Part shown: positions 21,725-64,000 of the stretch, one piece after another
Layout: each line of letters begins with the position of its first letter
Position numbering within the stretch: the first letter of the stretch is position 1
Source: Acholeplasmatales bacterium
GTDB taxonomy: Bacteria; Bacillota_I; Bacilli_A; Acholeplasmatales; Anaeroplasmataceae
Assembly (NCBI GenBank): GCA_017454375.1
Contig: JAFTDB010000032.1
Location: 1-64,000 of the forward strand
Direction: 5' to 3'
DNA length: 64,000 nt
Position numbers and translations under genes: made by a program
Notes under the pieces: generated by a model
The model's database searches: none
What the model was told of the DNA's origin: nothing
What the model saw: the letters and a program-made list of their open reading frames with translations, nothing else

Positions 21725-21743
21725 TAAAACTCAAAATAATGGC

Positions 21744-25044: not shown

Positions 25045-25073
25045 TTGTTGTATTGTTAGAAATGTGTTATAAT
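25045..25073 (+). promoter_or_regulatory. Promoter of the sugar symporter gene
   Basis: TTGTTG (25045-25050), 17 bases, TATAAT (25068-25073) with an extended -10 TG two bases upstream. The 24960-25044 part must contain the divergent pectate lyase promoter; a minus-strand TG-T-TAAAAT near 25015 is the best candidate but has no good -35. Confidence 0.65.
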
Positions 25074-25118
25074 TTCCATAAGAATAAGACTAATTCTATT
25101 TAAAGTATGGAGGCTCTT

Positions 25119-28122: not shown

Positions 28123-28132
28123 TAGTATCCCT

Positions 28133-30974: not shown

Positions 30975-30993
30975 AAAAATCCCTCCTATACTC

Positions 30994-31481: not shown

Positions 31482-31496
31482 TTCCTAACTCCTTAA

Positions 31497-32246: not shown

Positions 32247-32263
32247 AATATACCCTCCCCATC

Positions 32264-34963: not shown

Positions 34964-34987
34964 AATACTCTCCTAGATATAAAAGTT

Positions 34988-35608: not shown

Positions 35609-35625
35609 AGTCTATCGTCCTTTCC

Positions 35626-35699
35626 ATATATTATTATATTATTAACACAAAATAAAGGAATTACGATATTTATATATCGATATATCTATATTGATATAG
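35626..35699 (-). promoter_or_regulatory. rex-adhE-hydrogenase operon promoter with LysR-type binding dyads
   Basis: Minus strand TATAAT (35638-35633) with no good -35 (ATTCCT at 35661-35656), which suggests activator dependence. Upstream lies the dyad TATATC-N6-GATATA (35681-35698), centred about 63 bases before the inferred start at ~35626. A second perfect palindrome, ATATATC/GATATAT (35672-35685), overlaps its edge. A position near -65 is the classical recognition site of LysR regulators. The match to the dyad before the lysR gene supports this. Confidence 0.6.
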
Positions 35700-35721
35700 C
35701 ATTATTGATTTAAATCTTTAT

Positions 35722-36648
35722 TTACTTATTCTCAAATATTTCTCTTTTAGCATTAGTTAATTCAGTAAGGAATAATTTATCTAATTTAGTAAATGCATAG
35801 CCCTTTTTATAGATTAATACATCTCTATAAACCTTATCATTATCCTTACATTCTCTTTGGATTAGATTGTATCTATCAATATATGTTTTTGGAAGTGGAG
35901 AAACCCACATAAAGGCATTTTCATTTTCTGATAATATATCAAATTGACTACCTCTTTCAAAAACATATATTCTCTTATCTATATCCTCAGGTAATTCTGC
36001 CTGTCTAACCTTAGATAAGGGCATTGAAGGTATATATGGATCAGCATGAGCAATTTCTACATATTCCTTTAAATCTTGATATCTAATTTCTTCTTTATCA
36101 GCTAATGAACTATTTTTATTGAATATTAATTTATAAGAATATTCAGAAATTAATTCATATTCTAAGCCCTTTTCTTCTAACATTATCTTAAAATATTTAT
36201 CATATTTAGAGGCATATCTTATAATACCTAATCTATAATCTGCATCAAGGATATTTTCAATGGCCTTAAAAGAGTTAGTTTCTTTATAAAATATTTCAGC
36301 AGGATTATCATTATCTATATATTTAGAGAATTTCATAAATGCATATGAAATATATGAAGCCCTAGGAACTGATATAGAAAATAATTGTTTATTATTTGTT
36401 TTAAACATATCTTCTATTTTATCAAATTCCTCTAATGCTGTTTTAGCATAACGGATTAGCTGATCTCCCTCAACTGTTAGAACCATACCCTTTGATGTTC
36501 TTTCAAATATTTCAAAACCCAATGATGATTCTAATTCCTTTATAGCTCTAGATAAATTTGGTTGTGCTATATATAAATTTTCGGCAGCCTTATTGATAGA
36601 ACCTACCTTAGCTACCTCTATTGCATATTTCAAATACATTATGTTCAT
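35722..36648 (-). CDS. LysR-family transcriptional regulator
   Basis: 308 residues. The N-terminal winged helix-turn-helix has the family pattern SINKAAENLYIAQPNLSRAIKELESSLGFEIFERT (about residues 17-51, shown here only in outline: AAENLYIAQPNLSRAIKELE). The C-terminal effector domain is of the PBP type. The inducer is unknown. The gene lies in line with and 113 bases upstream of rex, with no visible terminator between. A shared dyad at its own promoter and at the rex promoter makes it the likely regulator of the redox operon. Start supported by AAGGAG. Confidence 0.87.
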   Translation of the reverse strand: MNIMYLKYAIEVAKVGSINKAAENLYIAQPNLSRAIKELESSLGFEIFERTSKGMVLTVEGDQLIRYAKTALEEFDKIEDMFKTNNKQLFSISVPRASYISYAFMKFSKYIDNDNPAEIFYKETNSFKAIENILDADYRLGIIRYASKYDKYFKIMLEEKGLEYELISEYSYKLIFNKNSSLADKEEIRYQDLKEYVEIAHADPYIPSMPLSKVRQAELPEDIDKRIYVFERGSQFDILSENENAFMWVSPLPKTYIDRYNLIQRECKDNDKVYRDVLIYKKGYAFTKLDKLFLTELTNAKREIFENK

Positions 36649-36836: not shown

Positions 36837-36869
36837 AGAATCAAACCCGAAAGTTTGATTCTATTTTTT
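36837..36869. terminator. Terminator of the giant surface protein gene
   Basis: Stem AGAATCAAAC (36837-36846), 6-base loop, GTTTGATTCT (36853-36862). An A-run lies on the left, so it ends minus-strand transcripts, and a T-run on the right. It is 10 bases beyond the stop codon of the giant gene. Stem and most of the loop are the same as in the hairpin at 26620-26641. Between 36710 and 36836 I see only AT-rich spacer. Confidence 0.85.
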
Positions 36870-36872: not shown

Positions 36873-39800
36873 TTATAGACCTAATTTGTATCTTCTTCTC
36901 ATTATGAAGAACATTACGCCTAATACCACCATGGCAGCAACTACTGCACTACCAATACCAACGCCGAAGCCTAAGCCAGCATTGAATACATGTGGTGCTG
37001 CATAGATGAATACAAATTCAGAAAGTGATGTAGTATTGAATGATACATGACTACCATTAATTACATAATCATCCTTTGTGAATGTTTGAACAAGACTACC
37101 ATTATGAATGTGTAAAATCTTGAAATCAAAATCCTTAACCTCATCTGGAATAACTAATTCTACAGTAATTACTGTACCAGAAGCTAAGTCAGATGGTTGA
37201 ATTTCTACATTACCTTCATCAGTATGTCTATACAATTTAACTTCATAAGCCATTACTGCCTTTTCATCAGTAGGGATTACTTTAGCATATATCTTAGCTA
37301 ATGGCTCTTCTGGTGTAGTCTTTACAAGCTCTGCTTCAAATTCTACATCAGATGTAAATCCTAATTCGCTATTAGCAATCTTAATTGATGCTGGATTAGC
37401 AGAATCATTATTAGATAATGTAGACTTGTTGTTAGCAAGTGTAACTTCTACAGCTGGGCTTGCTAGATAATTATCTAATTCTTTATATCTAACTTGATAC
37501 TTGCCTTGAGCTAAGCCTGTAACTGTATCACCAGTTATAGCCTTATATGATCCTGATTCAGCCTTGTATTCCATGTTTTCAGTTACACCTAAAATCTTAC
37601 CTACAGAAGCATTATCAACATCATTAACACCGCTTATACCAATAGGAGCATTACGTTCTGCCTTAGCAATTACGAAGCTGAATGATAAATCAGTTGTAGT
37701 CTTATCAGTCCATTCATAATTTACCTTATCAATGATTGATACAACTACATTATATGTACCAGCATTGAATTGAACATTATTTTCAATTCTATATAGATCA
37801 TTTCTAGCAATATTATAAGTGAACGCTTCACCAGTATATGTAAATGATCTATCATCCTTAACTGGCTTATCAATTGTAACCTTACTAATTACGAAGCTAA
37901 ATACGATATCATCAGTAGTATCATCATTCCATAGATAATTATCCTTATCCTTTAATGCTACTACAACATTGTATCTACCAGCGTTAGTTTGGATATTACC
38001 AGTTACATCATATAATGTACTATTCTTAACAACATATTCTTGTTTTTCACCATTGTAAGTGAATGTTGCATCATAAGCTGTTGGAGCCTCTACTATTGCC
38101 TTAAGGATTACATATTCAACTGAATATTCTTCTCCTTCAGGAAGCTCTGCTAGAACATAGTTATTATTTGTTAATGAAACAACAGTTGCCTTATGCTCAC
38201 CAGCGTCCTTAGCAATACCAATTGAAGTAGCGCTACATAGATCACCGCTAATTACACCAGTAACTCTTACAGATGGAGATTGATATTCACCATTATAAGT
38301 TAATGTTGTATTACCAAATACTACACCAACTGGTTTTGGATTAATAGTAATTGTAGCTTCTAATTCACCATCAATAATGTAGTTTGTTGATGTTGTTTCG
38401 AAGATTGCCTTAACAGTTACTACACCAACATTAGTTATTCTATTGTTAACATATCTAACTGTTGTAGCTATACCATCATAGCCAACTGGCATTTCACCAC
38501 TAATTTGAATTGAATGAGAATTTCTATCATATGTGAATTCTTTTGATTCAAATACGATATTAGATAAATCATAAGATGCTTTACCAATTACAAATTCGTA
38601 AGCTAAATCAGCCTTAGAATCATTATCCCACTTATAATTCTTAGAATCAGTTAATTTAACATTAACTACATATTCACCAGCGTTAGTTTGAACATTATTA
38701 GTTATTTGATATAAATCGCTTAATGCTAGATTATAAGTTTGTGCCTCACCGTTATATACGAATTCAGTTGTTACAGCTTCTGGTCTATTAACAGTAGCCT
38801 CAACGATACGATAGCTTGCGAAGACATTAGATTTAATCTCATAATTATCATTTGAAATACTTACGATTCTAATTGTGTAATCAACATTAGCTACATCTTT
38901 TCTACCATCAGTAGTTACAGCTTCACATTGATCACCAAAAACGATTCCTTCAAGAACTAATGTAGGCTTTTGAACCTCGCCATTATAAGTAAGAACTAAA
39001 TTAGACCATACAGGTGTTAATTCTTTCTTTATAACAGTTAGCTTACCACTCATAGCCTCTGGAATTTCATAGTTATCATTTGTAACCGTGAATGTTACAG
39101 TTGCTACTGTTGTACCAACATTAGTTAATACGTTGTTTTCATAATGTGGTACGATAATACCTTGTGTATCACCAGCGATTTCAAGCTTTTGTTCCATACC
39201 ATTATATGTAACAGTCTTATCGTTGAATGAGATATTATACATTCCAAATTCAGCCTTATTAATTATGAATTCATATGTTAAATCATCATTATTCTTTAAT
39301 TCATTATTCCATACATAATTAATCTTGTCAGCAAGCTCTACTAATACTTCATATTCACCTGCATCAACATGCTCATCATTTGATACATTGAAGTAATTAG
39401 ATGGAGTAATGTCATATTTTAATGTTTCACCAGTGTAAGTGTATGTTCTATCAATTACTGTAGGAAGTTCTACAACATATGGTGTAATCACAAAGTTTGC
39501 AGTTACTTCTGCAGGAAGCTTATAGTTAGCATTAGATAAAGCACTTACTGTTGCTACATATTCACCAACATTAGCCATGCCACCACTTACTGTCAAGAAG
39601 CATACATCTTCTTCAAATAAGCCTGTTGCTTGAGCTTCTGGAGTAATTACATTACCAGTGTATTCGAAGCTTAGGTTACCCCAAGTAATGCCGATTTCCT
39701 TTTCTACTACCTTTAATGTAGCAACCATATCTGGAAGCTCATTGTAGTTGTTACCAACATTGAATGTAACAGTAACTTCTTGTTCACCGACATTTCTTCT

Positions 39801-42800
39801 ATTATTGTTAACATATTCATATGTGATTTCAGTTGGCAATTCACCATCTATAGCAAGCATTAGATTATTAACTATACCACTATATGTGAATGTCTTAGAT
39901 TCGAATGCAAGCTTAGCTGCATCAAATGTTGCCTTACCAATTACGAATTCATATTCTAAATCAGTATTATCTGAATTTTCCCATACATAATTAGTCTTAT
40001 CAAGAAGCTCTAATGTAACTGTGTATGTACCAGCATTAGTTTGAACATTATTATTAATTCTATATAAAGGATTTAATTCAAGCTCATACTTTTGTGGATT
40101 ACCATTGTAAGTGAATACTGTAGTATCTGCAACAGGCTTAACAACTGCATATGCAGAAACTATGAATTCAGCTTGATAGTTAGCAGGAAGCTTATAATTG
40201 TTATTTGTAATTATAGCTGTTGCCATATAAGTACCTACTTCAATGCTTGGTCTATCAGCAGTTACTCTTAGATTAATCTCATCACCTTCGATGACATTAC
40301 CAGCCTCTACTGTTGGTAGCTTAGTTTCATTAGAATAGATGAATACTAATGTACCCCAAGTTAAAGTGATTTCTCTTTGGTTAACCTTAATATAAGCCTT
40401 CATTACTTCTGGAACATTATAGTTATTAGATTCAGTTGCAAATGTTGCTATTGCTAATAATTCACCAACATCAGTCATCTTATTATATTCATAAGATACT
40501 GTTACTGTATCGCCATCAAGACCTGTAGGTAATGTACCCGCAATATTAATTTCATGTTCTGTACCATCATATTCAAATTCTTCTGATGTGAATGTGATAG
40601 CACTCATATCATAATCAGCCTTTTCAACTATAAACTCTACAGAGTTTTCAGCTGGAATTGCATAATTATCATTATCGATAGAATCTAGTGTTACAGTGTA
40701 TGTACCAGCATTTGTAATAGCTGCACTTAATGTAGCATTAACTGTATCACCATCAACAACATTATTAAGTGTGATAGTTGGATTATGAGCTTGATTATCA
40801 TATGTAACTTTTGTATCAGTCCAAGTGATATTTAATACAAGCTTATTAACCTTTAATGTAGCTTCTAGCTTACCACTTATTTCATTGAAGTTAGAGTTAA
40901 CAGTGAATGTTACCTCAGCAGCAAGAGTTTGGGCAGCTGTAGATTCATTATTGGCATAATGAGGAGTTACACCAACTGGAAGCTCTTCTGCTATTTCAAT
41001 CTTATGAAGTGTACCATCATAAGTTACTTCTAAGTCTTCAAATGTTAATGTTGTAATATCAAATGTAGCCTTGTCAATTTCAAATGTGAATTCTAATGCA
41101 CTTGGAGTACCAACTACATTATACATCTTAGCATTTGGAGTAAGGATTGCTTTATAGCTACCAGCATTGATTGCCTTGTTATCACTAACAGCTTCATAAG
41201 CTGTACCATTATATAATTGATATGATATATCAAATACTTCTTCAAGACCTGTTAAGCCTTCCTTATCAGAGTTAATAGTTATTTCATGGCTACCAAAGTT
41301 GAATACATAATCATCAGCTTCTGCGGCCTTCTTAGCAACCTCTATAGTAGCCTTATTTGCTTCACCATAAGGTGAACCAGTAATTGCATCGTATACTACA
41401 AAGTCAGTACCAACCATTTCATATACAAATGCATGCTTATCTAAGCTAATTACTAAGTCACTACCATCAAGTTTTAAGCTCACATAATCATTATATGTCT
41501 TACCCTCAGCTTGACCTGTAGCATCAAATCTAAATGAAGTCTTATTAGCACTATTAGCATCTTTAACATAAACTAAATCATCAGCATATGTCTTGAATAC
41601 TAAATTAACATTACCACCACTATATTCTACATGGTTGTATTCTGCATAAACATTAGATAATTCACCATTATTTAATGCTTGATCTACATGGCCTCTAATT
41701 ACTGGAGTGCCTGTTAGATATAATTCAGATGTAACAGTATTTAATACTACATTATTAACATTACCACCAGCAAGTACTAATACTGATGTATCGTAAACAT
41801 TAATATTACCACTTTCTTCAGTAGTTACATCATCATATAGCTTGAATACTGCATCACCAGATACATCAAGTGCAGCTATATTATGACCGTTTAGATCTAA
41901 TCCCTTAATATCAGCACCAACTACTACTAACTTCTTATCTAGACAAGTTGTTAAGAAATAGTATGCATGTGTAGCATCAAGAGTATAACAATCATTAACA
42001 CTATCATATGTTAAATAATCATATGAATTAGTATCAGAATCATAATAGATTTCTAATACTTCTACATTTCCACTTACGAAGCCAGTCTTATCATATACTA
42101 CTTTCCATATGATTGGTGTAGTACCATCTTCATCATAATGCCAATAATTTCTATAAGATGCAACTATAGGGAATGTTTCACTATAGCACTTAATCTTAGA
42201 CATTTCATTATATGATATATCATCTCTTTGTGCTTGATAGAACAATTCGCTCTTAGCTTCAAATGTATTATTTGCAATTGAAGTAACTGATGCAGGAATT
42301 AATACATAACAATCAGCACTTATATAATGATATGAATACTCATTTGAAGCAGGATTTGTAAGTGATAAGTTAACCTTAGTTTCTCTTGAGATCTTAGTTA
42401 CAGTATTTGGAATTACAATACCCTTAATTGAAGTGATTGCACCTCTTAAACCATATAATTCAGTATTATCAGCTGGATTATATACAAATTCCCAATGATT
42501 AACGATATCTTCATCGTTAACAACATACTTAGCTACATAACCGTTTGATACCTCTCCACGTTCTAATACGCATAATGAGTAGTTATCAATCTTAGCTAAT
42601 GTTGTTGAATTCATGAATGCATGATCACCAATTGTAGTTACTGCATAAGGTAATGTAATAGCCTTAATACGTGTAGCGAAGAATGCATAATCACCGATTA
42701 CTCTTAATTCACTATCATAGCCACTGCTACCAATAGTTACTTCTTGTAAGCCAGATCCTGAGAATGCGCTATTTGCAATTTCAGTTACTGTATCAGGAAT

Positions 42801-45800
42801 AATAACCTTAGTTAAGCCAAGTGCACTATTGAAGGCAGATCCTTTAATCTTTGTGATTGCACTATTGATTGTAATTGTACCTAATGCAAGCTTACTACAT
42901 CCTGAGAATGCATAAGCACCGATTTCATCTACATCAGGGTTGAATGTAATCTTTCCAAAGTTATAACAATTTTCAAAAGCATGATCATAATATTTGATAA
43001 CATTTGTAGTTGCATCGATTGTCTTAGCAGAATCAGTTGGATCTGGAGTGAGGATTTCAGTGATCTTATCACAGTTTTGGAATGCATATGCACCAATAGA
43101 TGTTACAGCTGGAATAGTGATAGATGTAGCTGTAGTCATATTCATGAATGCACCAGCAGAGATGTTACCATCTAAAATAGTGATCTTTGCTAATCCTTGT
43201 GGTATGAAGTAAATTTCATCAGTTAATACTGAAGTAGAATCAGCATAATATGATTGGATTACTCTTCTACCATTATTATATGTGTTTGTACCGAAGATAT
43301 ATCCAAGTGGATATTGATTTGTATCAGTATCAACGTTACGCATACTTCCAACGAATGGAAGGACGATTTCCTCAAGTGAGCTACATCCTTCAAATACTGC
43401 AGCACCAATTAATACAACTGACGAAGGAACTGTAACCTTCTTAACGAATGTTGCATTCTTGAATGCGCCCTCTTTTATTTCCTTAACAGGAAGTGAAGAG
43501 TATTCTGCAGGTATTTCAATTGTTGAGCTTGTGATACTACCAATACTTACAAGTCTATAATAATTATTGGCTGGATTAGATGGATCTACTACTAATTCAA
43601 AGTCGAAGTTAACTGCCCATTCAGTAGGTAGATATTCCTCGTTATAATACCAATAATTAATACGGTTAACATTTGGAGATGTTTCTGAATAATATCTTGC
43701 TCTAGTTCCACCATCCAATACCAATACACCATTACCTGTAGTATAATCTATGATCTTCTTAGTTACACCGCCAAAGTAGATAACTAATAAGCTATTCATA
43801 CCCTTAGATGCATCATTCTTTATTTGGGTAATAGTTGATGGTAATACGAAGTACTTAATGCTTGAGCATCCTTCAAAGGCACTTACGCCAATTGTAGTAA
43901 TGCCTTCTGGTAATACTACCATTTCAACTTCCTTGAAGTTATAGAATTGATAATCACCAATCTTATCAAGAGTTACTCCTGAAGAAATTAAATCTAGATG
44001 TAATTGAATAGTATCAACTGTAGTATATGTATTATTATCCTTAATTCTGAATGTAGGACGTACCTTAACATCTACGTTGTTTTCTCTAACTGTCTTTTCT
44101 GGAGCGTTCATTGGGTTAGCGTATAGGTTGGCGAATTCAATCAATGCCCAGCTTAGAACAGTATTATCATAATATATATTATATAGATTAGAATTTTGAA
44201 TTCTAAATGCATCCTCACCAAATGATGTGAATGTACCACTTAATGTAATAGATGCAAGTGATTGAGCACCCTTGAATGCTTCTTTGCCAACTACTAGACC
44301 ATCACCAGTTAATGCTAGTGAAGTAATTAGGTTAACATTTTCAAATGCATTTCTACCAATTGAAGTTAATGTAGAATCGATAGTAACATTTTCAATGATA
44401 CATGTTGAAGTTTCCTTATGAGCAAATGCATAATCACCAATTGTTGCCGCATTTTCACCAGTGATTCTTACTTCTCTTAATGACTTGAAGTTATAGAATT
44501 GATAATTACCAACACTTGTAGTTAATGCTATTTCACTTGGAGTGTAATATACATTATTATTGTTCTTCATTAATACAGTCGCATAAGCAGCTGGGTTAGA
44601 ATACATATTTGCAAATGTAATACCCATCCAATCTTCAATTGTACCATCATAATATACATTTTGAAGGGCTGGATTAATATTATCTACACTCTTGAATGCA
44701 TCAGTGCCAATTGATGTAATACTACTTGATAAATTAATTCTTTCAATATTGATTGCCTTTTCAAATGCAGATGCTGGAATAGATGTCATTGTATTTAAAG
44801 TGACAGTCTTTAATGATTCAGGAATTAAAATATTAGTTTCACTAGGACCATTTGTACCAAAGATATAACCGAAATATGTATTAGTGTCTCCACCATCACC
44901 AATGATTGGTAATGTTATAGATGTTAAATTACATCCGTAGAATGCACCAAAGCCAATCTTAGTAATATTAGTTGGAACAACAACACTAGTAATTGCAGTA
45001 TTCTTGAATGCTTCTGCACCAATTTCTACTACATCATGTTCATTTCTAAATTCATCACTGATTACTAAATTCTTTTCAGTTACGTTACCGATACCGATAA
45101 TCTTATATTTACCACTATTTGGTGCAGTTTCAGCATAGTCAAATGAGATACCCCAATCAGTTGGAACACCGTCAACCATATGCCAATGAGTACCTGCGCT
45201 TAATAGAGGTCTTTCTTCTGAATAATATAATCTAGTTAAGCTTGATAGGTTAGTATCATGATTTATACTATCCCACATAGTAGCATCTGTATCACCAGGC
45301 TTACCATAATATACAACGCAGTTTGGATTTACTGATGCAAATGCACCGGCTGTAATGCTATTAATGCCTGATGGAATGATTACATATTCAAGTGAAGTCA
45401 TACCAGCAAATGAGTTTGCAGAAATTGAAGTTAATCCACTAGGAAGAACTAAAGTCTTAATTCCGCTACATTCAGCAAATGCATATTCTTCTATTGTTGT
45501 AACTGATTCTGGAAGTGAAATAGTTTCTACTTCATTTAAGCCAATGTAAGCATATGCTTTTACTACTTCTGTACCAGGAATAACATGAATTTGAGTGAAA
45601 TGATAGTATGTATCTGCATCAGTTGTTGAGTCATTTATGAATGCATGTCTACCATAATATAGAGGGTTAGAATACATATTCTTACATGTGATTGTTAAAT
45701 ATTCATAACGTGAACCATTGAAGTATACATTTTCAATATTAACACATCCATAGAATGCATTCTCATATAGAATTACCATTGTACCTGGAACTATAACATT

Positions 45801-57800: not shown

Positions 57801-60800
57801 TGATATACCTCCAGTATCATCTGTTTCAATTGCAAATGATGATGCATAAGCCATTGGGTTAGAGTATGCATTGGTAAATGTAATACCTAACCAGCTTGCT
57901 TCCCAATTATTCTCAACATCATAGAATACATTTTGAAGACCTGTACAACCTTCAAATGCACTTGCTTCTACTGTCTTTAGACTTGCAGGTAATTCAATTG
58001 CATTTAATGATGTACATCCTGCAAAGGCATTAGAGCCAATTGTCTCAACGTTACCTCCAAATATTATTTGAGTAATTTTAACATTATTAGCGAATGCATT
58101 AGATGCTACACCCTTTACAGGCTTACCATTAAATGTATCAGCTACTGAAATAGTTTGTGTATTTTCTGGCATTGTACCTAATCCAGCTAATACATAATAT
58201 GAAACTACGCCGCCTTCTAATACTTCTGTGTAGTTGTAACCAAGACCCCAACGTACGATAGCATTACCTTCATAATGCCAATAGTCTGTTGTAGTTGTTG
58301 CTGGCTCATTAGCTGAATAGAATAGCTTAGGAACTGTATTTTTGAAACCATCATTACCTTCGCCAAATACTATTGTTGCCCAAGTTGATGCATTAACATC
58401 AGTTGGATAACCATAATAAATCATTGTAATACTATTAACACTATCAAATGCATAATCACCAATATTTTTAATACTACTTGATAATAATATTTCACCAATA
58501 TTAGTTGCATTAGCAAATGCTCTTGTACCAATAGTTATTACATCATTTGTGATTAATCTAGTAATTGTACTAAAGCCATAGAATTGATATGGTTTAATAA
58601 CTGTTATTCCAGCAGGAATTGTTAATTCTGTTAATGAAGTATAACCATCACCACTCCTGATATTGAATGCTGTGGCATAAGCCATTGGGTTAGCAAATGA
58701 ATTTGTAATATCAATGTTTAACCAGTTAGTTATAGTACCATCATATTTAACTGTTGTAAGTGATGAACAACCTGTAAATGCCGCATCACCAATTGAAGCC
58801 AATGAAGCTGGAATAGTAATTTCAATTAGTTTATCACAGCTATTGAATGCATTTGCACCAATTGTTGTTAATGAAGCTGGTAGGACAATGCTTGTAATAG
58901 CTGTACCTAGGAATGCTTCACTGCCTATTTCTACTACATTAGCACCAATGCTTACGTTACTTAAGTAAGTTTCATTTTTGAATGCTTCAGCCTTAATCTT
59001 AGTGATAGGCTTACCATTAAATGTATCCGCAATTACTACGTTAGTTTGAGCAGTAATATCTAAAGTACCACTATTAACTACGTAATATGCAACTACCGCA
59101 TTATTTACTATTACTTCTTCATATTCAAGTGATGGATCCCATAGCTTAATAATATTATTATCATAATGCCAATATGAAGTAGATTCACTAATAGGGGCAG
59201 TATATGAATAATACTTAATTAAATCTGCAGCAACTGGGAATACGTTATAATCACCAACTGTAATATTTTTCCAAACATTTGGCGCAGTTGGATCAGTTGA
59301 TGTAGCAAATGTGTCAGCTGGACCACCATAATAAATTCTTGTTAATTGTGAATTATCTCTAAATGCATATGTCTTTATATTAGTTAAGTTAGATGAAACT
59401 CTAATTGTAGTTAGGTTAGTAGCCTTATAGAATGCATATTCACCAATCTCAGTAACTGTATCAGGTAAGATAATACTTAATAAGTTAGTGAATCCATAGA
59501 ATTGATATGGCTTAACGCTAGCACCAGATGTAATTACAACATTTTGTACTTCTACATATGTCATAGGTGTATCTACATCATTATCATGATCTATTAATTC
59601 ATAGAAATGATCAGCTCTTGAGTTATTCATTGGGTTAGCTTCTGCATCTAATAGATCAATCACAGCCCAATGATTTATATCTTCTTTATAATATACATAT
59701 TGAAGATCACTCATATCTGCAAATGCGCCATAATATATTTTTCCTAACTCTGCAGGTAAATATAATGTAGTAATTCTATTGAATCCTGCGAATTGATGAG
59801 CATTAATATTTACCTTTCCATCAGGAATAGTAAGTGTAGTTATACCATTTGAAACTGCACTATATGTAATTGAATCATCAAAGAATTTGTGAGTAGCATT
59901 ACCTGGAGCCATTGGGTTAGATGTTTCAGATACAAATGAGTTATTCATCCAGTTAGAAATTGTACCACTATAAATAACCTCTGAAATCTTTTCATCTCCA
60001 TCGAATGCACCTTCGCCATAAGTTGTATTAACAGTTGCTATAAATATCTTTTGTAATAATACATTTTCAGCAAATGCATAAGATCCAATAGTTGCAACAT
60101 TTGAAGGTATACTTAAAGAACCAATCTTTGTACCATAGATTGCCTTACTACCTATTGTTGTAATTGAAGTTGGAATATTAACAGCACAATTATCATCTTT
60201 GTTAATGTATTGTAATTCGCTACAGCCTTCAAAGGCACTAGCTTCTATTTCTATAATTTGATATCCGCCTTGTGATTCAAAGACAATAGTTGTAACAACT
60301 CTATTATCCTTAAATGCACCTTCCAAAATCTTAGTTACAGGCTTTCCTGAATAGAATGCAGGAATAACAAGTTCTTTTGTTTGTTGATCAATAGAACCGA
60401 TATTTCTAATATAGTATGCAGTTCCACCATCATTTAATACATATTCGAAGTTACCTGGCCAAACTGTTAGAATAGTTACATCAGAAATAGTTGTTGTATC
60501 ATCATACCAGAAATTAGTAGCATTGATGCTTGGAACTACTGATGCATAGTACACCTTCTTAGTTAAAGTAAAGTAATCATTACCACTTTCAATTGAAATC
60601 TTATTCCAAGAAGGCACATTAGCATCTTCACTTGTTTGAACACCATTGAAATAAATTAATTCAAAATTAGGCATACCATAGAATACATATTCATTGATAG
60701 TCTTTAATGTTGAAGGAATATATGCCTTTAATAATCCATTATTACTATGGAATGCATATACATTAATTGTTTCAACACCTTCTGATAATATTAATCTTTC

Positions 60801-63800
60801 AGTATTCTTAAATCCGTAGAATTGGTTAGCTCCAATTGTTGTAACTGTAGATGGGATAACAACTCTAGTTAATAATATGTATTCAACACCATTATATTCA
60901 ACTGGAGTTTGTGCTACTGCATTTCTTTCATCCTCAAAAATCATTGATTTATCTTCAGGTGAAGTATAGTGAATATAGAATTTCTTTGCTGTAACCTCAG
61001 AAACACCCATTGGGTTAGAATCTTTATTACCAAATGAGAATCTACACCAAGATGCAATTGTACCAACGAAGTATACATTTGTAATACCAGTATTCTTATC
61101 AAATGCTGAATTACCAACAGTAACTGTTACGTTAGTATCTGTATTTTCATTAAATGTTACATATTTCAATCCTGTAACACTACCAAATGCATATTCACCA
61201 ATTGATTCAATTGATGCAGGTAATACTAATGTTTCAAAATGAGTATATTGGAAGGCACGTACGCCAATAGTCTTAATTCTAGGAGCATTGTTACCTTCAG
61301 ATATAAATTGTAGAGTATATAATTGTGTACAGTTATGGAAGGCATCTGTGCCAATTGTTGTAACTGTATATGGAATCTTCATAGAAGTGATAGCATATTT
61401 ACCATCAAAGGCAGCATTAGCTATCTCTCTTACTTCTTTACCATTTAAATGAGATGGAATAACTAATTCATTATCAGTCATTGTGCCAATGCCAACAACC
61501 TTATAATAATTTCCATTTACAGCATCTACTACTAATTGATATTCAAAATCCTTACCCCATAGTTTAGGGTCATCATTTTCATCTAAATACCAATGACTTG
61601 TAGAATGAGATAATGGGCTTTCAGCTGAATAGTAATAAGCTAAAAGTTGTGAAATGTTAGTTGTAAGAATTGTATTACCATCTTGAATAGTTGTACCAGA
61701 TTTAAAGCTAAATATGTCTGCATACTCAATATCAGCAGGATGTCCATAATATAAATGCTTCAATCCATTTACTGTTGAGAATGCATTTAAGCCAATATTA
61801 GTTACAGATGAAGGAATAGTTACATCATCTAATGCTGTATCACCAGCGAATGTGTATGGTGCAATAGCTGTTAAAGCACCCTTAATTACGGCTAGCTTTA
61901 ATGAAGTATTATAAGATAATGCACCTTCTCCTAAAGTTGTAACTGTACTAGGAATAACAATCTTTGTAATTGAAGTGTTATATGCAAAGGCACTTGCACC
62001 TATTGTTGTAACGCCTTCAGGAATTACATAAGATGTTACATTATTGAATCCATAGAATTGATATTGATTGATTGTTGATACTGATGGAATAGTAATCTCA
62101 GTTATTTCAGTATATGTATCTTCTCCACTCTTTAGATATAAATGAGCAGTTGTATTGTTCATTGGGTTAGCTTCATATGTAGCAAATGAAATATTCAACC
62201 AATTAGTAATTGTGCCATCATAATTTACATTAGTTAAATGAGTAACATTCTTGAATGCTGCTGCATTAATATTTCCAATAACACTTGAGAAATAAATAGA
62301 TGTTAAGCCTGAATTTTCAAATGTATTAGCAGAAATTGTAGTTACACCTGTAGGCATAATCATCGTAGTTAAAGAGCTACATCCCTTGAATGCAGCGATA
62401 CCGATTGTTGTAATTGTATCTGGTAACTTAGTTAATCCTGTACCAGTTAATGATGATAAACCACTACATCCTTCAAATGCACTTGCACCGATTGATGTTG
62501 TAGTTGCTGATACTTCTACTGATGTTAATGATGTATTGCCTTTAACAAATCCATCAGGAATTACAGTTACAGTTGCAGGTAATACAACTGAAGTTAATGC
62601 TGTATTATTTGCAAACGCAAAGTTACCAATTGTAGCAAGTGTGCCTGGTAGACCATTAGTACCAAATGAAGTGAATCTTGTACCATAGAATGCTTCAGCA
62701 CCAATAATTTCTAGACCTGAGTTTAGTGAAATGGCAGTTAAAGTATTATTTCCATAGAATGTTCTAGCGCCAATCTCAATGATATTAGCACCCATAGTGA
62801 CATTAGTCATTCCATGGCCTTCAAATACACCATTATCTGTTTCACTTATAATCTTAGTTACAGGAATATTATTTAATGTATCTTTTATTACTGCTACTGT
62901 TGGATTTTCTGCTTCTGCATATGTACCGAATCCAACGATTGTGTAATAAGCAGCATTGCCTTCACCAGTCTTAACATATTTGAAGTCTGGCTCCCAAACC
63001 TTAATTTCTAAATCAACTGGAGTTTCATTATCATAAACAGTAACATAACGCCAGTATGATGTAGAATTATTTTCTGGAGATAGCTTCTTATAGAATTTAA
63101 CTGTTAATGTCTTACCAGTTAGGATAGATGCAAATGCTGTCCTGATTGAATTCCATCCAGCATCTGTTGATTCTGTATCAGAATGATATCCATAATATAC
63201 AGTTAAGTTAACAGCAGGAATTACATTAGTACCAACTGATGAAATAGTTGATGGAATAGATATCCATTTTAAGTTTGTACAACCTTTGAATAAATCATTG
63301 CTTAATGTAGTTAAGCTTACATTAGCAGTATCATTTGTAACATGAACTAGCTCTAAGTGATCTAGGCTAGTACAGTTTTCAAATGCACCTGTGCCAATTG
63401 CAGTTATTGTTTGAGGTATAACTAATGTTACAAGAGCAGTTCCCTTGAAGGCATAATCGCCAATTGTTGTTGTGCCTGAAGAAATTGTTAAATTATTTAA
63501 ATGTGTTGCACCATCAAATAGATGAGCTGCGATAGCTGTAGTTGCAGTAGGAATTACTACATTATTAATAGATGTACAGCCAGCAAATGCACCCTCACCA
63601 ATTGCAGCCACTGAATCTGGTAGGCTGATAGTAGTTAATGCAGTATTTGCAAATGCATAATTACCAACTGATGCAACAACTGAAGTTGCAGCGAATGTTA
63701 CTTCTGTTAATATTGAACAACCCTTAAAGGCGGTGTTGCCAATTGCTGTTACTGTATTAGGAATAATAATATCAGCAAGAGATGTACAGCCTTCAAATGC

Positions 63801-64000
63801 TGATGCATTTATTAATTCTAAGCTATCAGATGGTAATTCATTAAATGTACCATCATCAAATCTTAGCATGCTCAAAGAACTACATCCCTTGAATGCAGAT
63901 GAATCAATTGTCTCTAAAAGAGATTTATTACCTTTTATAAATGTTATCTTAGTGATACCACTACATCCCTCAAATGCACCTGCACCGATAGTAACAAGAT
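36873..64000 (-). CDS. Giant BspA-like LRR / MBG-domain surface protein (3' part, 5' end outside the window)
   Basis: One reading frame without a stop for 27 kb; 9,041 residues are visible and the frame is still open at 64000. A TTG at 63875 should not be taken as the start, because the LRR pattern (FEGCSGITKITF, SSAFKGCSSL) continues upstream in frame. Order: BspA/TpLRR (LRR_5) repeats over about 7,300 residues; a beta-rich, possibly beta-helical linker (about 340 residues); fifteen MBG/YDG Ig-like domains (about 1,140 residues); two further beta domains; and a membrane helix with tail RRRYKLGL. No LPXTG. It is expected to be exported and to reach far from the cell for adhesion, binding host, plant or bacterial ligands. 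Protein mass would exceed 0.9 MDa. Confidence 0.9.
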   Translation of the reverse strand, partial: LVTIGAGAFEGCSGITKITFIKGNKSLLETIDSSAFKGCSSLSMLRFDDGTFNELPSDSLELINASAFEGCTSLADIIIPNTVTAIGNTAFKGCSILTEVTFAATSVVASVGNYAFANTALTTISLPDSVAAIGEGAFAGCTSINNVVIPTATTAIAAHLFDGATHLNNLTISSGTTTIGDYAFKGTALVTLVIPQTITAIGTGAFENCTSLDHLELVHVTNDTANVSLTTLSNDLFKGCTNLKWISIPSTISSVGTNVIPAVNLTVYYGYHSDTESTDAGWNSIRTAFASILTGKTLTVKFYKKLSPENNSTSYWRYVTVYDNETPVDLEIKVWEPDFKYVKTGEGNAAYYTIVGFGTYAEAENPTVAVIKDTLNNIPVTKIISETDNGVFEGHGMTNVTMGANIIEIGARTFYGNNTLTAISLNSGLEIIGAEAFYGTRFTSFGTNGLPGTLATIGNFAFANNTALTSVVLPATVTVIPDGFVKGNTSLTSVEVSATTTSIGASAFEGCSGLSSLTGTGLTKLPDTITTIGIAAFKGCSSLTTMIMPTGVTTISANTFENSGLTSIYFSSVIGNINAAAFKNVTHLTNVNYDGTITNWLNISFATYEANPMNNTTAHLYLKSGEDTYTEITEITIPSVSTINQYQFYGFNNVTSYVIPEGVTTIGASAFAYNTSITKIVIPSTVTTLGEGALSYNTSLKLAVIKGALTAIAPYTFAGDTALDDVTIPSSVTNIGLNAFSTVNGLKHLYYGHPADIEYADIFSFKSGTTIQDGNTILTTNISQLLAYYYSAESPLSHSTSHWYLDENDDPKLWGKDFEYQLVVDAVNGNYYKVVGIGTMTDNELVIPSHLNGKEVREIANAAFDGKYAITSMKIPYTVTTIGTDAFHNCTQLYTLQFISEGNNAPRIKTIGVRAFQYTHFETLVLPASIESIGEYAFGSVTGLKYVTFNENTDTNVTVTVGNSAFDKNTGITNVYFVGTIASWCRFSFGNKDSNPMGVSEVTAKKFYIHYTSPEDKSMIFEDERNAVAQTPVEYNGVEYILLTRVVIPSTVTTIGANQFYGFKNTERLILSEGVETINVYAFHSNNGLLKAYIPSTLKTINEYVFYGMPNFELIYFNGVQTSEDANVPSWNKISIESGNDYFTLTKKVYYASVVPSINATNFWYDDTTTISDVTILTVWPGNFEYVLNDGGTAYYIRNIGSIDQQTKELVIPAFYSGKPVTKILEGAFKDNRVVTTIVFESQGGYQIIEIEASAFEGCSELQYINKDDNCAVNIPTSITTIGSKAIYGTKIGSLSIPSNVATIGSYAFAENVLLQKIFIATVNTTYGEGAFDGDEKISEVIYSGTISNWMNNSFVSETSNPMAPGNATHKFFDDSITYSAVSNGITTLTIPDGKVNINAHQFAGFNRITTLYLPAELGKIYYGAFADMSDLQYVYYKEDINHWAVIDLLDAEANPMNNSRADHFYELIDHDNDVDTPMTYVEVQNVVITSGASVKPYQFYGFTNLLSIILPDTVTEIGEYAFYKATNLTTIRVSSNLTNIKTYAFRDNSQLTRIYYGGPADTFATSTDPTAPNVWKNITVGDYNVFPVAADLIKYYSYTAPISESTSYWHYDNNIIKLWDPSLEYEEVIVNNAVVAYYVVNSGTLDITAQTNVVIADTFNGKPITKIKAEAFKNETYLSNVSIGANVVEIGSEAFLGTAITSIVLPASLTTIGANAFNSCDKLIEITIPASLASIGDAAFTGCSSLTTVKYDGTITNWLNIDITNSFANPMAYATAFNIRSGDGYTSLTELTIPAGITVIKPYQFYGFSTITRLITNDVITIGTRAFANATNIGEILLSSSIKNIGDYAFDSVNSITMIYYGYPTDVNASTWATIVFGEGNDGFKNTVPKLFYSANEPATTTTDYWHYEGNAIVRWGLGYNYTEVLEGGVVSYYVLAGLGTMPENTQTISVADTFNGKPVKGVASNAFANNVKITQIIFGGNVETIGSNAFAGCTSLNAIELPASLKTVEASAFEGCTGLQNVFYDVENNWEASWLGITFTNAYSNPMAYASSFAIETDDTGGISFHGHNHTVPNDVVIPADTSIIGAYQFYGFSQNTKLYLPESITKIGVDAFANCNSLTDVYYDGTLYSGDTNWCKIEFKNENSNPMNNSGAVNFYIMNNTTHDYDLLTTIDLSDVTSGFTVKNYSFIGFACVEYIKLGKKVGTLNEGTSNVQWINDKAFANTTGVKKIVLASTSHLGNGSFSGLDQSVLERIYFIGTAEAFDNYSSHYASTNNSIVRSKTKFYSPLEPIANSTSCWYFDSDVPTEWPADFEYSEVLGTGNNVVAYIIIDRGTNTDTNVVIKNTLNGKPITGIASKQTRGVFEGTNITSITLGENILEIGARTFKDATSLTTVSLNSGLKYIRAQAFEGIGLTAITLPSTVEVIGDNAFADNAFTSLELSTNLKTIGASAFANIAELETLVMKADIQTIGSHAFDNATALTTVNFVGNISDWLEIDFADSSTPLVNASATIKFNNSLVTDITIPAPVAPATSLEIGDYQFYNFKDLTSVTIPEGVTKIGKYAFYNAPLNAEGFKLLIPASVTTIGDYAFDGQTAFETMYYASGTTKYAAIIKGVDFIKSTVKVIYYSLKFPDSNSQNYWHYVNEVITIYGKSLEYELITENNETYYVVKSIGNFEGLEITIEKTFNDIEIKGIAANAFKNKAITSVTFAEPSNVKTIGASAFEGCTDLFATTPFNFALPSSLEEIGEYAFAGCQFKNIYIGDSITTIGANAFSNMTGLQNVYYSGTTHNWASISFGNEYSTPMYRANNKTTNFYIKKNNEYVELTTVDGLDGLTEISRYAFYNFTNVASVKLPDGLQKIGYYSFNGTAIESILIPHSVITIEGGAFNDCANFRKLYFAGTSGEFNNINIIADYSWQNNITKIYYSEARPLQNSTSYWRYVSSVPTEWPNDFDYVIIDNKYYISGKGTMVFDNEHPTVTIPADFDGSNVVGIVDNAFYGNTDIKEVILNSNITSIGSRAFIECSNLQKIYISDSINTVGTSAFDGCNLLQYVFFDGTIGDWLEITFENESANPMYSGLAFYIVDNTATANYEEFNSKKFVSLTTLEIPDGTTYIKNYQFYGFKNVVKLIISDDIIEIGTKAFYDDTSLREIYYGGPLAANDVEPSNWNSVIFGDFNESLFANNVTTRYFKHNNPLSNSTSYWYYDTNGDIQVWAKDFTYEEIKTDNGDSTFTYTYIVKDWGTLDTNITALVIPSEFRTGDAETRGRVVGIAADAFTGREFVTSVSLTSNIKSVGANAFSGCTGIESVRFTGSMEAWAEIEFGSASANPMSISIGTNKFYLNENASPLTTVTIGAGATKVGDFAFYGFDQITSLTLVDTASIDTTNHIYNSTITSIGDHAFYHININKIVLPKVTVIKGSAFEAAFTGENPTIYYNGSKAEWEAINLQDSKTWLNGITLNYYSVGAPLTDATSHWHYHNNDTAGGVIEIWEGDLTYVLNTITNDQNQVIGYTYSIKDSGTKVFTANMTLEIRSMFINPVTYEYDIPVVEILEGALRGIDSIKEVKMPSIRKIGANAFAGCSNLTKIYISDDIFSVGANAFYGTQINEVLYKGDFSKWLYTVFANEYSTPMYISDSFKIGTDADYQGYTELTEYVFATGGTKVNKYAFYGFGKLKRIILPDGIITIDDYAFNGVGTSTSGETKIYIPNSVKTIGNYAFTGATSVVVYYHGTTEAWADVIKSEQSGIDDVEVLYFNEARPLSASTTMWRYTGTPTPTEPTRWERDFTYKDNGNGAYSIVDMGTLLPDSNGLVVVPDTFVPVTGNPIPVVKIERDAFQSNQGIVELRIGANVADIDNSSIAICSNLTTLLLPASLTRIGTFAFYNCINLEKVYYTGTIDNWCDIELGNIYSNPMAVMTKDLESTNPKTSKFYILDANGEETYAEQKFELLTNLVISRTAENKTSVNKYQFSGFDCVTSLTVTATTIKEEAFSNMSSLTTLVINDVVTIEANAFAELTKVTSVTMSDAVVTIGANSFFHLSMDVADETTVSFNLPHTIKTVGSAAFTTTKPLVIFYNGTEDEWKNTVTKPEASEIWLSQNYIKYYLETIPLLHSTNYWHLVNSVPTLWGKEFDYELSNNGNYYIVVGIGTITDKDITIPDVFNGKPVSEIGYAAFYNIQSIETVIINNNITTIPDLAFGNCRSLRAVYINGSITTIGEAAFSSDSALVSINIPASITQIKARAFESDPLLRNVYYDGTIENWYAITIENEKANPMNNISTTELNKFYAKDVTGDFAEYNNTTYYLVTSLVAPGAVTAIKPYLFTGFNSVTSVDLVNVTTVGAKAFANMSSLTTLTLGDYISTIGDEAFKNDSSLQSFIMRKDITSLGANAFEGLGNNAWIFYSGSITDFNSVTKTATDSYLENVKYYSENQPDTLSNKHWRFVANVPTPYNNDYDFVLRTVTTGNNSETYYVISIGGMSEDAELSLPSSRNDIPVKAIASEGFRGGAFTSISIPNSIVSVEEYAFVGCPNLTNVYYRGSITEWNKITFANIRSNPMWSTTATNFYILKGNNDESLETDSTYMTNDYKLVTNLVITDTVIGNYQFNGFSCVTEVTFPDNLESIGAEAFSGLSVTYYSLPKDSLTKLGTNAFNELPAATFSYIYYDGDKTMWSSITLNNNDGYVAYVRFRSDTEPLSDRNLYWHYNDQHIRVGWGANFNFVLNADQVSYSISGIGSYEGNNIVIPNTYNNLPVTAIANYAFYDNVNITAVTIPASIKVIGTGAFSGCTGIQEIVIPEGVTEIGEAAFSGSVNLVSITISSTVTSIKKDAFNGCSRLSNAYYENMDNWLNITFGNASANPAFYATIYHKKNNEYVEVDEIVIQSNITTVGNYQYYGFKNITRLVIGQDVETIGDYAFYGVDTNTVLNNKIVSIGRNAFTNNTKLTSLVVPATTTSIGQEAFRNCTGLTNVTIKSNLANINSGVFNGCSSLETIMLEDGLVNILSSAFNGTALEEVYTKTSMANWNVHIESFNTEFENAKLLHYSETKPLQKSTSHWHYVEEVPTTWPADYDYVLIDNKYYIAGIGGITDTILDLPAEFLDANSKIYGIADDAFAYNDDIVIVNIPEDSYQSIGKRAFYNCTSMTDIWLPASIKKYDEYAFIGCSGLEWVWYMGLVEDWLTIEFEIGGTPCINQSAELSFGGGWVAYIVITVPSGYAIGDYAFYGLKHIRDIYLPDDLTTIGTQAFTNMSSLADIIIPASVTSIGAQAFDGMTSLQTIYYGGSREQLANITLDGGDNPLETDMVKFYSAQAPFNNSRDYWKYDSNNEPVLWDYDFAYEEYQTGYKVVGIGTKQETDLEITTFRGGSILAIEAEAFRGNEAITSMILPATVEVIGEAAFADMPNLTTIVLPNGLEEISNELFRNDTKLSSVNMPTSLKDIGTYAFEKTAITEASFGTALRSIGIYAFAETKLVAVVLPDSVTTVGGYAFSSIPTITSFTLSEGLTEIADGMLYGATGLTSITLPEELTKIGSRAFYNSGLTSILVTKNITSIGNEAFYGSENLAQVSNSSVLVIVRGATTNGYVAYYATSDINELSGFTFELVDGKYTVTGMYGNANKLASETSIIIPSTYENVVVNRIGASAFVKLVNLSSVVIPDTIIEIGASAFANNLIEELTIPASVKTIGASAFANSTKLYSLTFENGSVLETIGAHAFESSIIQNINLPTTVKTIGDYAFASNSRAEVINLGNSLTTVGAYAFYRNVGTTTLTIPSTLTTVGDYGFATMTALTTLNYGGTVETWGQITFGDVSTPLFNRSANIRINGNPVTELSLNTNVGNYQYYGFRDVATLSLGAGVSTIGNYAFSEIKVDHLVIPATVTTIGEHAFENNTALKYVLFADNSPVTSLEQYVFYGDTALEYIVIPTSITEIGEFAFYRTSALNKVYYYGDSTNWNAITIGSSNGAISTSISNVLKYYAADKPLANTTGHWHMVSGLPEVWKADFDYEIVDGKYYVKGIGSMTGDSINIPAYYNNDTTKPIYGISANAFNGESFRNLNVSRGIQILGAGCFSNNTSLVNVIVPGTMVILYENAFYGCVNIENVYFNGSRYEYLTITCKNMYSNPLYYGRHAFINDSTTDADTYYHFTQIHVIPGTEVVKAYAYIGLNEVETISLPESVTTIEEYAFAECSGIKTLVLPSGLTSISANSFAGMTSLEYVIIPSGINSITAGAFASVNPNCVVYYGKPGDTDATMWDSINHDTNLSSLTRLYYSEERPLLSAGTHWHMVDGVPTDWGISFDYAETAPNSGKYKIIGIGNVTEKNLVISDEFRNEHDVVEIGAEAFKNTAITSVVVPTNITKIGFGAFYGCNLTSITLPIIGDGGDTNTYFGYIFGTNGPSETNILIPESLKTVTLNTMTSIPASAFEKAINIERINLSSSITSIGTDAFKSVDNINPALQNVYYDGTIEDWMGITFANMYSNPAAYATVLMKNNNNVYYTPSEIALTTSVGNYQFYNFKSLREVRITGENAATIGDYAFAHKETSTCIIENVTIDSTLTSIGRNAFENVNLITSLALTGDGLVVGKEAFKGAQSLASITLSGTFTSFGEDAFRIQNSNLYNIYYDNTVLSWALIEFANLYANPMNAPEKTVRENNVDVKVRPTFRIKDNNTYTTVDTIQLHLDLISSGVTLDKIGDYQFYNFKEVEMVVLPEGITTIGVSAFEGCSSIKYFVLPSTITQIKNDASKGMNSLLVIYFGGVTKKIIDYTTGNGVLVLDGGTRARYYSETSPNVNRINYWYYNEEYLPTEWAVNFDFELVVDPSNPANNYYRLVSIGSITSSTIEIPAEYSSLPVKEIKEGAFKNATFVKKVTVPSSVVLIGAAVFEGCSSLEEIVLPFVGSMRNVDTDTNQYPLGYIFGTNTYNNGRRVIQSYYADSTSVLTDEIYFIPQGLAKITILDGNISAGAFMNMTTATSITIPAVTSIGAYAFQNCDKITEILTPDPTDSAKTIDATTNVIKYYDHAFENCYNFGKITFNPDVDEIGAYAFSGCSKLALGTITINSAITKIKGSAFNSALGLTKVIIPDTVTEIANSAFSGSGLQEVTIGSSGYDSELRVIGDYAFFATRIKAITLPYAVTTIGDHAFMNSTTLAKIDNYSLCVLERGEVSNGYVAKYVVNDEDIVNHWEFVYNPADNTELYGLRGAITSIKGIVIPNTVTKISRETKVNLSLTNPASNEYSYHYISADCYVLIPASVTSIANNTFEAKSELFYQAQRDDISYNEMSKIKCYSETFPIVASYRNYWHYDEDGTTPIIWKVVYDKTGFVSGNVEVLEIYYDSDTNSYDYLTYDSVNDCYTLDATHAYYFLTTCLDKKLVVVGADIKGLDLNGHNIAALDVSGDAVFKLYDDVTTEESGNINVYDTSVLVLAGGNVNNVVLNTVTSELYLTGTPVIRGHVDQALNNGELSNVYAEYNHVEYSGGNVNLVFKTYADDLVYVKDANSANKTSFRFDATGQAEGKTYNDYVSLKLDGSDLVISLDKHAFVYEMVGTDFVVYDAITGSPYGEANKATIEVAKKAAEADDYVFNFGSHEITINSDKEGLTGLEEVFDISYQLYNGTAYEAVSDNKAINAGSYKAILTPNAKMYNVVGTPSALEFTFEIDKATFDITTLTFEDLEVTYDGTLHKIEIAEELPVGVTPHYANNESTAAQTLAAEVTFTVNSNFNEISGKLEATLKVNKLVLNITWTDTKVTYDNQAHNPTITLNNVVDGDTVNATLSAAITNAGTYTVTLDSIDNDNYAIPAENSVEFIVEKADYDMSAITFTSEEFEYDGTEHEINIAGTLPTGLDGDTVTVSYEYNKMTDVGELLAIATFATESNNYNVPEVMKAYIKVNQREITLTWGTLVFIYSNETKLPTVEAGNVIEGDEINLRVTADRPSIEVGTYMATAIITNNNYKLPANYQAEFIVSAYAVVKPVADTTVFTYNGNPQKYELELNPLYRINNNVQTNAGTYTVTLELLDKTNYVWENSDNTDLEYEFVIGKATFDAAKLAFESKTFTYSGIVNNLMLAIDGELPTEITYEYVNNNRRNVGEQEVTVTFNVGNNYNELPDMVATLKVVEKEIGITWGNLSFEYTGNVITPEAQATGLFEEDVCFLTVSGGMANVGEYVATVSALSNANYKLPAEVTANFVITPYVVELPTVIDRTYTYTGETLKYDITPSNYFNVSNDEHVDAGEYEVLVELADKINYVWNNELKNNDDLTYEFIINKAEFGMYNISFNDKTVTYNGMEQKLEIAGDTQGIIVPHYENNVLTNVGTTVATVTFTVTNDNYEIPEAMSGKLTVIKKELTPVWSNLVLTYNGEVQKPTLVLEGIVFGDQCEAVTTDGRKDVANVDYTIRIVSISNDNYEIKSNVFASYRIVEATVNRPEAVTTEFVYNGEAQTYNLALSDLYQITNNVQTNAGEYVVNVKLTDSKNYKWDNDSKADLAYEFVIGKASYDLSNIVFESKEFTYDRNSHSIQISGEMPVGYDGIATTVRYVNNRITNVGVVTVKAIFETTSTNYIIDGELEATITINPKPVGVVFGNTTLTYNGEYQSPSVRVTGVISGDLCSATSIGIAKDAGEHKATVVSLTNNNYVLAELPEGEEYSVEYVILKAIVEAPTAYDATFTYNGEKQEYVVKNSTLYDVTGNIQTNAGRYNVVVALKDKDNYLWNDDTTDDIVFSFVISKVTIDKPVKDDRSFTYTGEAFTYNIARNDLYRIENNVQFNAGTYNVVVSIIDKVNYEWTDKTTTDLSFSFVIAKAERNAPIGISGVNDVDNASVGKILGVTENMEYKAESGSYKAITGDTVTGLAQGKYQVRYKELDNYLASPAVEVTLANNKSTLSNNDSANPASIKIANSELGFTSDVEFEAELVKTTPEEPLAKIYAKVIPTDEKAVMAYEVKLYRHTDEGNVEIQPSDLASGTVITVELVIPDEVKDFDFKILHIHNGSLVQTFTKDDYVINGSHVSFNTTSLSEFVFIYAAPHVFNAGLGFGVGIGSAVVAAMVVLGVMFFIMRRRYKLGL
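36897..36965 (-). other. C-terminal membrane anchor of the giant protein
   Basis: Codes for a Gly/Ala/Val/Met-rich helix of about 21 residues (VGIGSAVVAAMVVLGVMFFI) followed by the basic tail MRRRYKLGL and the stop. This is the hydrophobic-plus-positive part of a sorting signal, but no LPXTG-like motif precedes it (the preceding residues are FIYAAPHVFNAGLGFG). A sortase-independent transmembrane anchor is therefore the simplest reading. Confidence 0.75.
37670..41080 (-). repeat. Fifteen MBG/YDG Ig-like domains in an A-B-C rotation
   Basis: Three domain types alternate, each about 70-80 residues. Type A opens KATF/KASYD and has FTYDG...IAGELP...YVNN. Type B opens with an ITWGN-like strand and has TYNG...P...GVI.GD...NAG.YTV...NDNY. 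Type C opens VxxPxxxxxxFTYNG and has LYxITNNVQTNAGxYxV...DKxNYxW...DLxYEFVI. Reading N to C I count A-B, then A-B-C four times, then one extra C. The regular rotation indicates amplification of a three-domain block. Confidence 0.75.
41080..42110 (-). other. Beta-rich linker between LRR and MBG regions
   Basis: About 340 residues with neither LRR nor MBG pattern. Short strands rich in Val, Asn, Gly and Thr (GADIKGLDLNGHNIAALDVSG, shown in part as KGLDLNGHNIAALDV) recur every 18-22 residues, as in a right-handed beta-helix. It probably caps the LRR solenoid. Function unknown. Confidence 0.55.
42110..64000 (-). repeat. BspA/TpLRR leucine-rich repeat region in about 20 long modules
   Basis: LRR units of about 23 residues with consensus IxxxAFxxCxxLxxIxIPxxVxxIG. 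They are grouped into longer modules marked by a STSYWHY-like motif, then a W-x-DF-x-Y segment, a short GxGT/IP strand, LRRs, a YYxGTIxNWxxIxFxNxxSNPM loop, and a IxxYQFYGF cap-like element. YW motifs lie near 63050, 61587, 60508, 59167, 58259, 57097, 56070, 55187, 54385, 53567, 52695, 51652, 50687, 49900, 48847, 48058, 46063, 45182, 43651 and 42132. Module length is thus about 0.8-2.0 kb. Copies are well diverged at DNA level. Confidence 0.8.

Follow-up and report, generated by a model that had tools for sequence, protein, structure and literature searches.

BspA-like proteins usually reach up to a few thousand residues in length. BspA and LrrA have been reported as surface proteins involved in fibronectin and fibrinogen binding, coaggregation, and epithelial adhesion, and the BspA-like proteins of Trichomonas vaginalis range from 58 to 1,865 aa (PMC2843621). 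In the wall-less Candidatus Mycoplasma girerdii, 26 BspA-like proteins of 136-1,481 aa were described, 23 of which carry a C-terminal TM helix (PMC4206474). By scale, other proteins come to mind, such as Giant1-5 of Apilactobacillus kunkeei, which are repeat-built, extracellular, 3,000-8,000 aa long, and encoded several per genome, together occupying up to about 6% of a 1.5-Mb genome (PMC12863079). In a UniProt survey of huge proteins (>5,000 aa), the bacterial ones included surface attachment and recognition proteins; the bacterial domains highlighted there were NRPS/PKS, Big_9, Cadherin, HemolysinCabind, and Dockerin, and its main text is without LRR (PMC11573180). Here, we analyzed a giant gene encoding an LRR protein in a bacterium of the small-genome, gut type.

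The analyzed stretch of DNA comprised 64,000 nt (hereafter, the window), corresponding to bases 1-64000 of contig C26, a 136,652-bp contig with zero N, in a draft assembly (G000) of 1.80 Mb in 36 contigs that is 92.5% complete and 7.3% contaminated. On the minus strand of the window, a frame at 36873-63998 continued through 9,041 codons with no stop and was open at the window edge. The sequence-only reading had taken this 27.1-kb stop-free frame as a genuine gene encoding more than 9,040 residues and had expected a start codon and a signal peptide beyond position 64000. Both were located there: the open frame extends on C26 to 75470, and its first good start, an ATG at contig position 75455 (L008:11455) with GGAG (ribosome-binding site) upstream, is followed by an export-type signal at residues 7-25. 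Counted from this ATG, the gene is 38.6 kb long and the protein has 12,860 aa, so that the earlier length was correct as a lower bound but fell short of the full protein; the in-window CDS (36873..64000, minus strand) covers residues ~3,819-12,860 and the stop codon. If ~7.1% of codons are expected to be stops, a stop-free frame of 12,860 aa would arise in random DNA of the same composition with a probability of ~10^-411. Each of the other five frames over the same DNA was interrupted by 602-1,965 stops and stayed open for at most 178 codons, and neither stops nor frameshifts were seen in the assembled frame over the full 38.6 kb. Furthermore, codon usage correlated throughout the frame with that of the neighbouring genes (r = 0.95-0.99), compared to 0.79 for a shifted frame. 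These results confirmed that the giant is one genuine coding gene, larger than first described.

We also considered whether several LRR genes were fused in frame by the assembly process, as might happen with a repetitive protein sequence in a draft of 36 contigs with 7.3% contamination; a 24,221-aa frame in another draft (G081) is indeed masked N. However, the giant gene contains zero N, and no exact direct repeat in it is longer than 26 bp, which makes a misassembly driven by repeats unlikely. In addition, there is one signal and one anchor, located at the extreme ends, a similar array with the same junction occurs in an independent assembly (G001), and another giant of this genome aligns in colinear order over long stretches with a homologue in a second genus, as described below. 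An artificial fusion is, in our judgment, very improbable.

Upstream of the giant, an ABC-transporter operon encodes an ATP-binding protein, two permeases, and a solute-binding protein. The gap between this operon and the giant contained two terminator-like hairpins and one promoter-like site (TTGAAT-17-TATAAT, with TG preceding), promoter-like sites being no more frequent in the gap than in shuffled DNA. At the other end, an intrinsic terminator-like hairpin with an 11-bp stem followed by a T run was found 11 bp past the stop (36837..36862, minus strand), and the downstream scan gave 2 sites (one hairpin, counted on both strands) versus 0.2 expected in shuffles. Because promoter-like and terminator-like sites flank it, the giant gene looks like a separate transcription unit, as judged from consensus matches. 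cre-like (CcpA/LacI) sites were observed at 1-2 mismatches upstream of all three giants of this genome, with half-sites (AAGCGYTT) within 300 bp of the starts (L008:11455-11855; C1:6500-6899; C27:72146-72545). Regulation through these sites was rejected as too weak a case, since 169 sites occur at ≤2 mismatches in 137 kb.

Pfam analysis of the translation detected 72 LRR_5 stretches, with E-values per piece down to 1e-251. The BspA-type LRR region spans residues ~130-11,000, with 23 aa as the commonest spacing of the repeat motif; its in-window part lies at 42090..64000 (minus strand) and is split into units by the caps described below. The description of a giant BspA/TpLRR protein is thus borne out over most of the chain. 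Profile comparison retrieved as solved relatives 4fs7, 4gt6, the TpLRR protein 6mlx, and pneumococcal PcpA (4cp6), which are bacterial cell-surface LRR proteins. One representative unit, residues 6,737-7,059 (54279..55247, minus strand), was defined by alignment as cap-LRR-NPM loop-LRR-cap, and an AlphaFold2 model of this single 323-aa unit had a mean pLDDT of 85.4 and a pTM of 0.81. When the model was compared using Foldseek, bacterial TpLRR/BspA-type surface proteins ranked first; matches to 6mlx, 4gt6, 4fs7, and 4cp6 had E-values of 1e-8 to 1e-5 at a probability of 1.00, with low global TM-scores that may reflect differing curvature of the solenoids. The unit is accordingly modelled with the TpLRR fold.

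HMM mapping showed that a cap motif (~YYSxxxPLxxSTxYWHxVxxxPTxW) occurs 26 times in the giant, at a spacing of ~260-1,290 aa. After 25 of the 26 caps, an LRR-start motif (YxVxGIGT...IP...PVxxI...AF) follows, and the last cap, residues 11,086-11,122 (42090-42200, minus strand), closes the LRR region. The same motif forms the C-terminus (...YYYSETEP...NYWHYVDGIPTIW) of LRR lipoproteins of ~2,300-2,700 aa in the same genus (G009, G011, G013, G018, and G025). In these relatives the cap ends entire lipoproteins, and we read the giant as whole capped LRR ectodomains strung together head to tail. The sequence-only reading had recognized the LRR and MBG make-up but missed this concatemer of 26 capped units.

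The cap-plus-start module was then searched in other genomes. Among the matches listed, both halves were matched in numbers only in the C26 giant and in G001, a species of the same genus, where a similar unit array has the same cap-LRR-start junction; elsewhere, across 160 genomes of the order and 395 of the class, the matches listed were nearly all confined to the LRR-start half, in frames below 3,000 aa. When 25 modules of the giant and 25 from G001 were placed in one tree, the two sets separated with 99/100 support and did so in each of the 200 bootstrap trees; the modules were detected by a model trained on our own giant, which may bias which G001 units are detected but not the side of the tree on which they fall. 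Mean identity of the modules was 32-33% within the set of either species and 26% between them. The separate clades thus suggest either that each species amplified its own array or that the units have been homogenised within a species. Adjacent units of the giant are no more alike than others, so that the duplications look old. The G001 array is fragmented, and contig ends truncate its frames, of 4,449 and 3,394 aa. Directly downstream of this array (G001:C81, L132, 13352-15118), a new frame similar to the N-terminal end of the giant type found on C1 (described below) begins and leaves the contig; two giant types may therefore stand in tandem in G001. When the N- and C-terminal 250 aa of the giant were searched against 55 genomes of the family for a whole-giant orthologue, only partial and distant matches were obtained; consequently, no cross-species constraint on the exact architecture can be read from these genomes.

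The many diverged units of one kind, their apparently separate amplification in two species, and the lack of a whole-length orthologue in the 55 family genomes would also fit a decaying or non-functional concatemer, or a reservoir for antigenic variation through recombination between units, either of which would not be made at full length. We regard this as improbable, since the frame is stop-free over 12,860 codons with even codon usage, no long exact repeats mark recent recombination, signal, stalk, and anchor are kept from end to end, and long blocks of a sister giant keep the same order across genera.

C-terminal to the LRR region, 15 MBG-like repeats of ~76 aa each form a putative stalk (37626..41060, minus strand). 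Repeats three positions apart shared 33% identity on average, whereas those one, two, four, or five positions apart shared 22-23%; this peak points to an a-b-c triplet super-repeat. The Pfam MBG_2 cut-off was passed by one repeat (27.6 bits), and the other 14 are related by alignment only. The combination of TpLRR/BspA repeats with MBG domains, as first proposed, was therefore partly right: HMM searches over the translation gave LRR_5 as far as ~11,000 and MBG_2 in one of ~15 related repeats, but the MBG-like part is small (~1,150 aa, 9% of the giant).

A hydropathy scan over all 12,860 residues found only two membrane-type segments, at 7-25 and 12,834-12,852. The former, judged by eye as well as by hydropathy, is predicted to be an N-terminal export-type signal, and the latter (36900..36956, minus strand) a C-terminal membrane anchor, after which a short positive tail, RRRYKLGL (36876..36899, minus strand), would be expected to be intracellular. 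Other modes of surface attachment were also searched. No LPXTG-like motif, as required for sortase anchoring, occurred in the last 200 aa; DUF5776 and SH3b-like domains had zero Pfam matches in the C-terminal pieces, and HemolysinCabind (RTX) repeats had zero in any piece of the giant. Dockerin and cohesin were absent from the C26 giant, the searches of its own genome matching C1, C13, and C27.

The giant was found to have companions in the same genome. Contig C1 carries a 17,173-aa LRR frame (G000:C1:6876-58397 (+), L012-L014) with a signal peptide, an Ig/MBG-like C-terminal part, and a terminal Dockerin_1 domain. On C27, a 5,980-aa frame (G000:C27:72531-90473 (+), L016-L017) starts with LRR, continues as an extended Ig/MBG-like array, and has a weakly dockerin-like end; another long frame follows it directly, from 90477 onwards. 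Together, the three giants make up 6.0% of the assembly. Another genus of the same family (G031) encodes a giant of 16,208 aa (G031:C8:9299-57925), which heads consecutive frames of 16,208, 5,592, and at least 1,661 aa (G031:C8:9299-80000, L128-L131). The C1 giant aligned with this homologue in long, mostly colinear blocks at 24-31% identity, and such colinearity between genera supports these lengths as real and kept. A 24,221-aa LRR frame in G081 was considered as a still larger relative and rejected, 72 kb of it being masked N. The C26 giant had been placed among the largest bacterial proteins; its size is unusual, but it is exceeded within its own genome by the C1 frame, and giants recur in the family. 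The genome's only cohesin match lies in a 2,258-aa frame with cohesin and dockerin (G000:C13:33946-34503 (-)), and the encoded protein could possibly be a partner for the dockerin of the C1 giant.

Next, genes for wall synthesis were examined. No penicillin-binding protein (PBP) transpeptidase was found in the host genome, whereas the same search was positive in 10 of 14 control genomes. It was likewise absent in 117 of the 134 genomes of the order and present in 17, including G031; the PBP-positive genomes include four of the host's own genus, and the distribution is patchy. The host cell is thus probably wall-less, although missing wall genes are suggestive only in an assembly that is 92.5% complete and 7.3% contaminated, and the patchy distribution suggests that wall loss may have happened several times in the order. 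Anchoring by a membrane helix fits this probable wall-lessness. Lack of a wall as the reason for the giants was weakened as an explanation, given that G031 has both PBPs and a giant.

These findings bear on whether the giant primarily binds or protects. In a wall-less cell, it and the other giants could form a structural or protective, glycocalyx-like coat that shields from grazing protozoa, phages, or bile or osmotic stress, any binding being incidental. The PBP transpeptidases missing from the host and from 117 of 134 genomes of the order, the 6% of the assembly given to three giants, and the divergence of the units (~32% identity), such as a coat lacking a single conserved ligand site would show, are consistent with this function. 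However, the 16,208-aa giant of the PBP-containing G031 shows that giants are not tied to wall lack, most PBP-less genomes of the order show no such giant in the searches made, and LRR surfaces are typically binding surfaces. A role as a coat rather than an adhesin is unlikely in our estimate. We consider it probable, though well short of certain, that this single gene encodes an exported, membrane-anchored, multivalent giant adhesin of the BspA/TpLRR type that also forms part of the surface coat.

We propose that such an adhesin grew as a whole LRR ectodomain was repeatedly duplicated in frame, head to tail. The chain would be exported by Sec, and its C-terminal helix would hold it in the membrane of the probably wall-less cell, while the MBG-like stalk would lift the chain of LRR units outwards, to roughly 0.2 µm if fully extended (estimated from ~470 coils at ~0.5 nm). 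Each unit could offer a binding surface, making the protein multivalent, with plant-derived polysaccharide, mucus, or other cells as putative ligands; this would be in keeping with the binding reported for BspA and LrrA and with the adhesion suggested by the sequence-only reading.

The neighbouring genes were also surveyed. At 15831-26570, the window contains genes for a pectate lyase, two PfkB-type sugar kinases, a short-chain dehydrogenase, and an MFS transporter; the pectate lyase, at 21744-24959, carries Listeria-Bacteroides repeats. By gene content, this region is likely a pectin-use locus. The pectate lyase, the sugar-kinase genes, and the dockerins of the sister giants are compatible with a plant-fibre niche. 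Next to the giant (26704-36648, minus strand), adhE, an [FeFe]-hydrogenase gene, and flanking genes are ~70-89% identical to Clostridia records, compared to ~48% for Rex and ~29-63% for Rex and the upstream transporter genes against the same Clostridia set. This contrast suggests that the adhE/hydrogenase cluster was probably transferred, and it is therefore a poor marker. Outside the window, at C26:82697-89383 (minus strand, L008/L009), a 2,228-aa repeated-domain protein with a Ser/Ala/Thr-rich linker and a single hydrophobic stretch near its start adjoins a glycosyltransferase-2-like gene.

In this locus, duplication seems to have proceeded by complete capped ectodomains, and the chain is ~7 times as long as the longest BspA-like protein of T. 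vaginalis. The giant is a variant of the known BspA/TpLRR kind that stands out by its size, its unit-wise construction, and its recurrence. Several questions become testable: whether giant surface proteins grow by duplication of units or by slippage, how a probably wall-less cell exports and retains a protein of more than 1 megadalton, and whether giants stand in for wall-based adhesion. As the G001 array illustrates, draft genomes can cut giant genes into ordinary-looking pieces of 3-4 thousand residues, and such genes may therefore be under-counted. More speculatively, lineages of mostly wall-less bacteria in the order may have repeatedly built giant LRR chains (of 12.9, 17.2, and 16.2 thousand residues), whole ectodomains having been amplified separately in one type, devoting up to 6% of a small genome to a protein outer layer and adhesion system that replaces the wall and sortase-anchored proteins; we hold this broader scenario to be doubtful at present.

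Compared by its parts, the giant finds its closest known system in the BspA/TpLRR proteins, including BspA of Tannerella forsythia, LrrA of Treponema, and those of T. vaginalis and Ca. M. girerdii. It shares with them the ~23-aa LRR_5 repeat, an export signal, and, according to the model, the same fold, and its C-terminal membrane helix resembles those of Ca. M. girerdii. Unlike these relatives, it reaches 12,860 aa, carries 26 capped units per chain, and has an MBG-like stalk. The lipoproteins of the same genus share LRR_5 and the cap with it, but they have a single terminal cap, an N-terminal lipobox-like cysteine, no C-terminal membrane helix, and ~1/5 of its length. Similarly, the C1 and G031 giants resemble the C26 giant in their LRR_5 chain, signal peptide, and Ig/MBG-like C-terminal part, but differ in having a dockerin-like end, no cap motif, and no C-terminal membrane helix. 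By scale, Giant1-5 of A. kunkeei are closest, being likewise very large, repeat-built, and several per small genome; however, they combine a beta-solenoid head with alpha-helical repeats and a C-terminal SH3b-like/DUF5776 region, whereas the giant is built of LRR, an MBG-like stalk, and a membrane helix.
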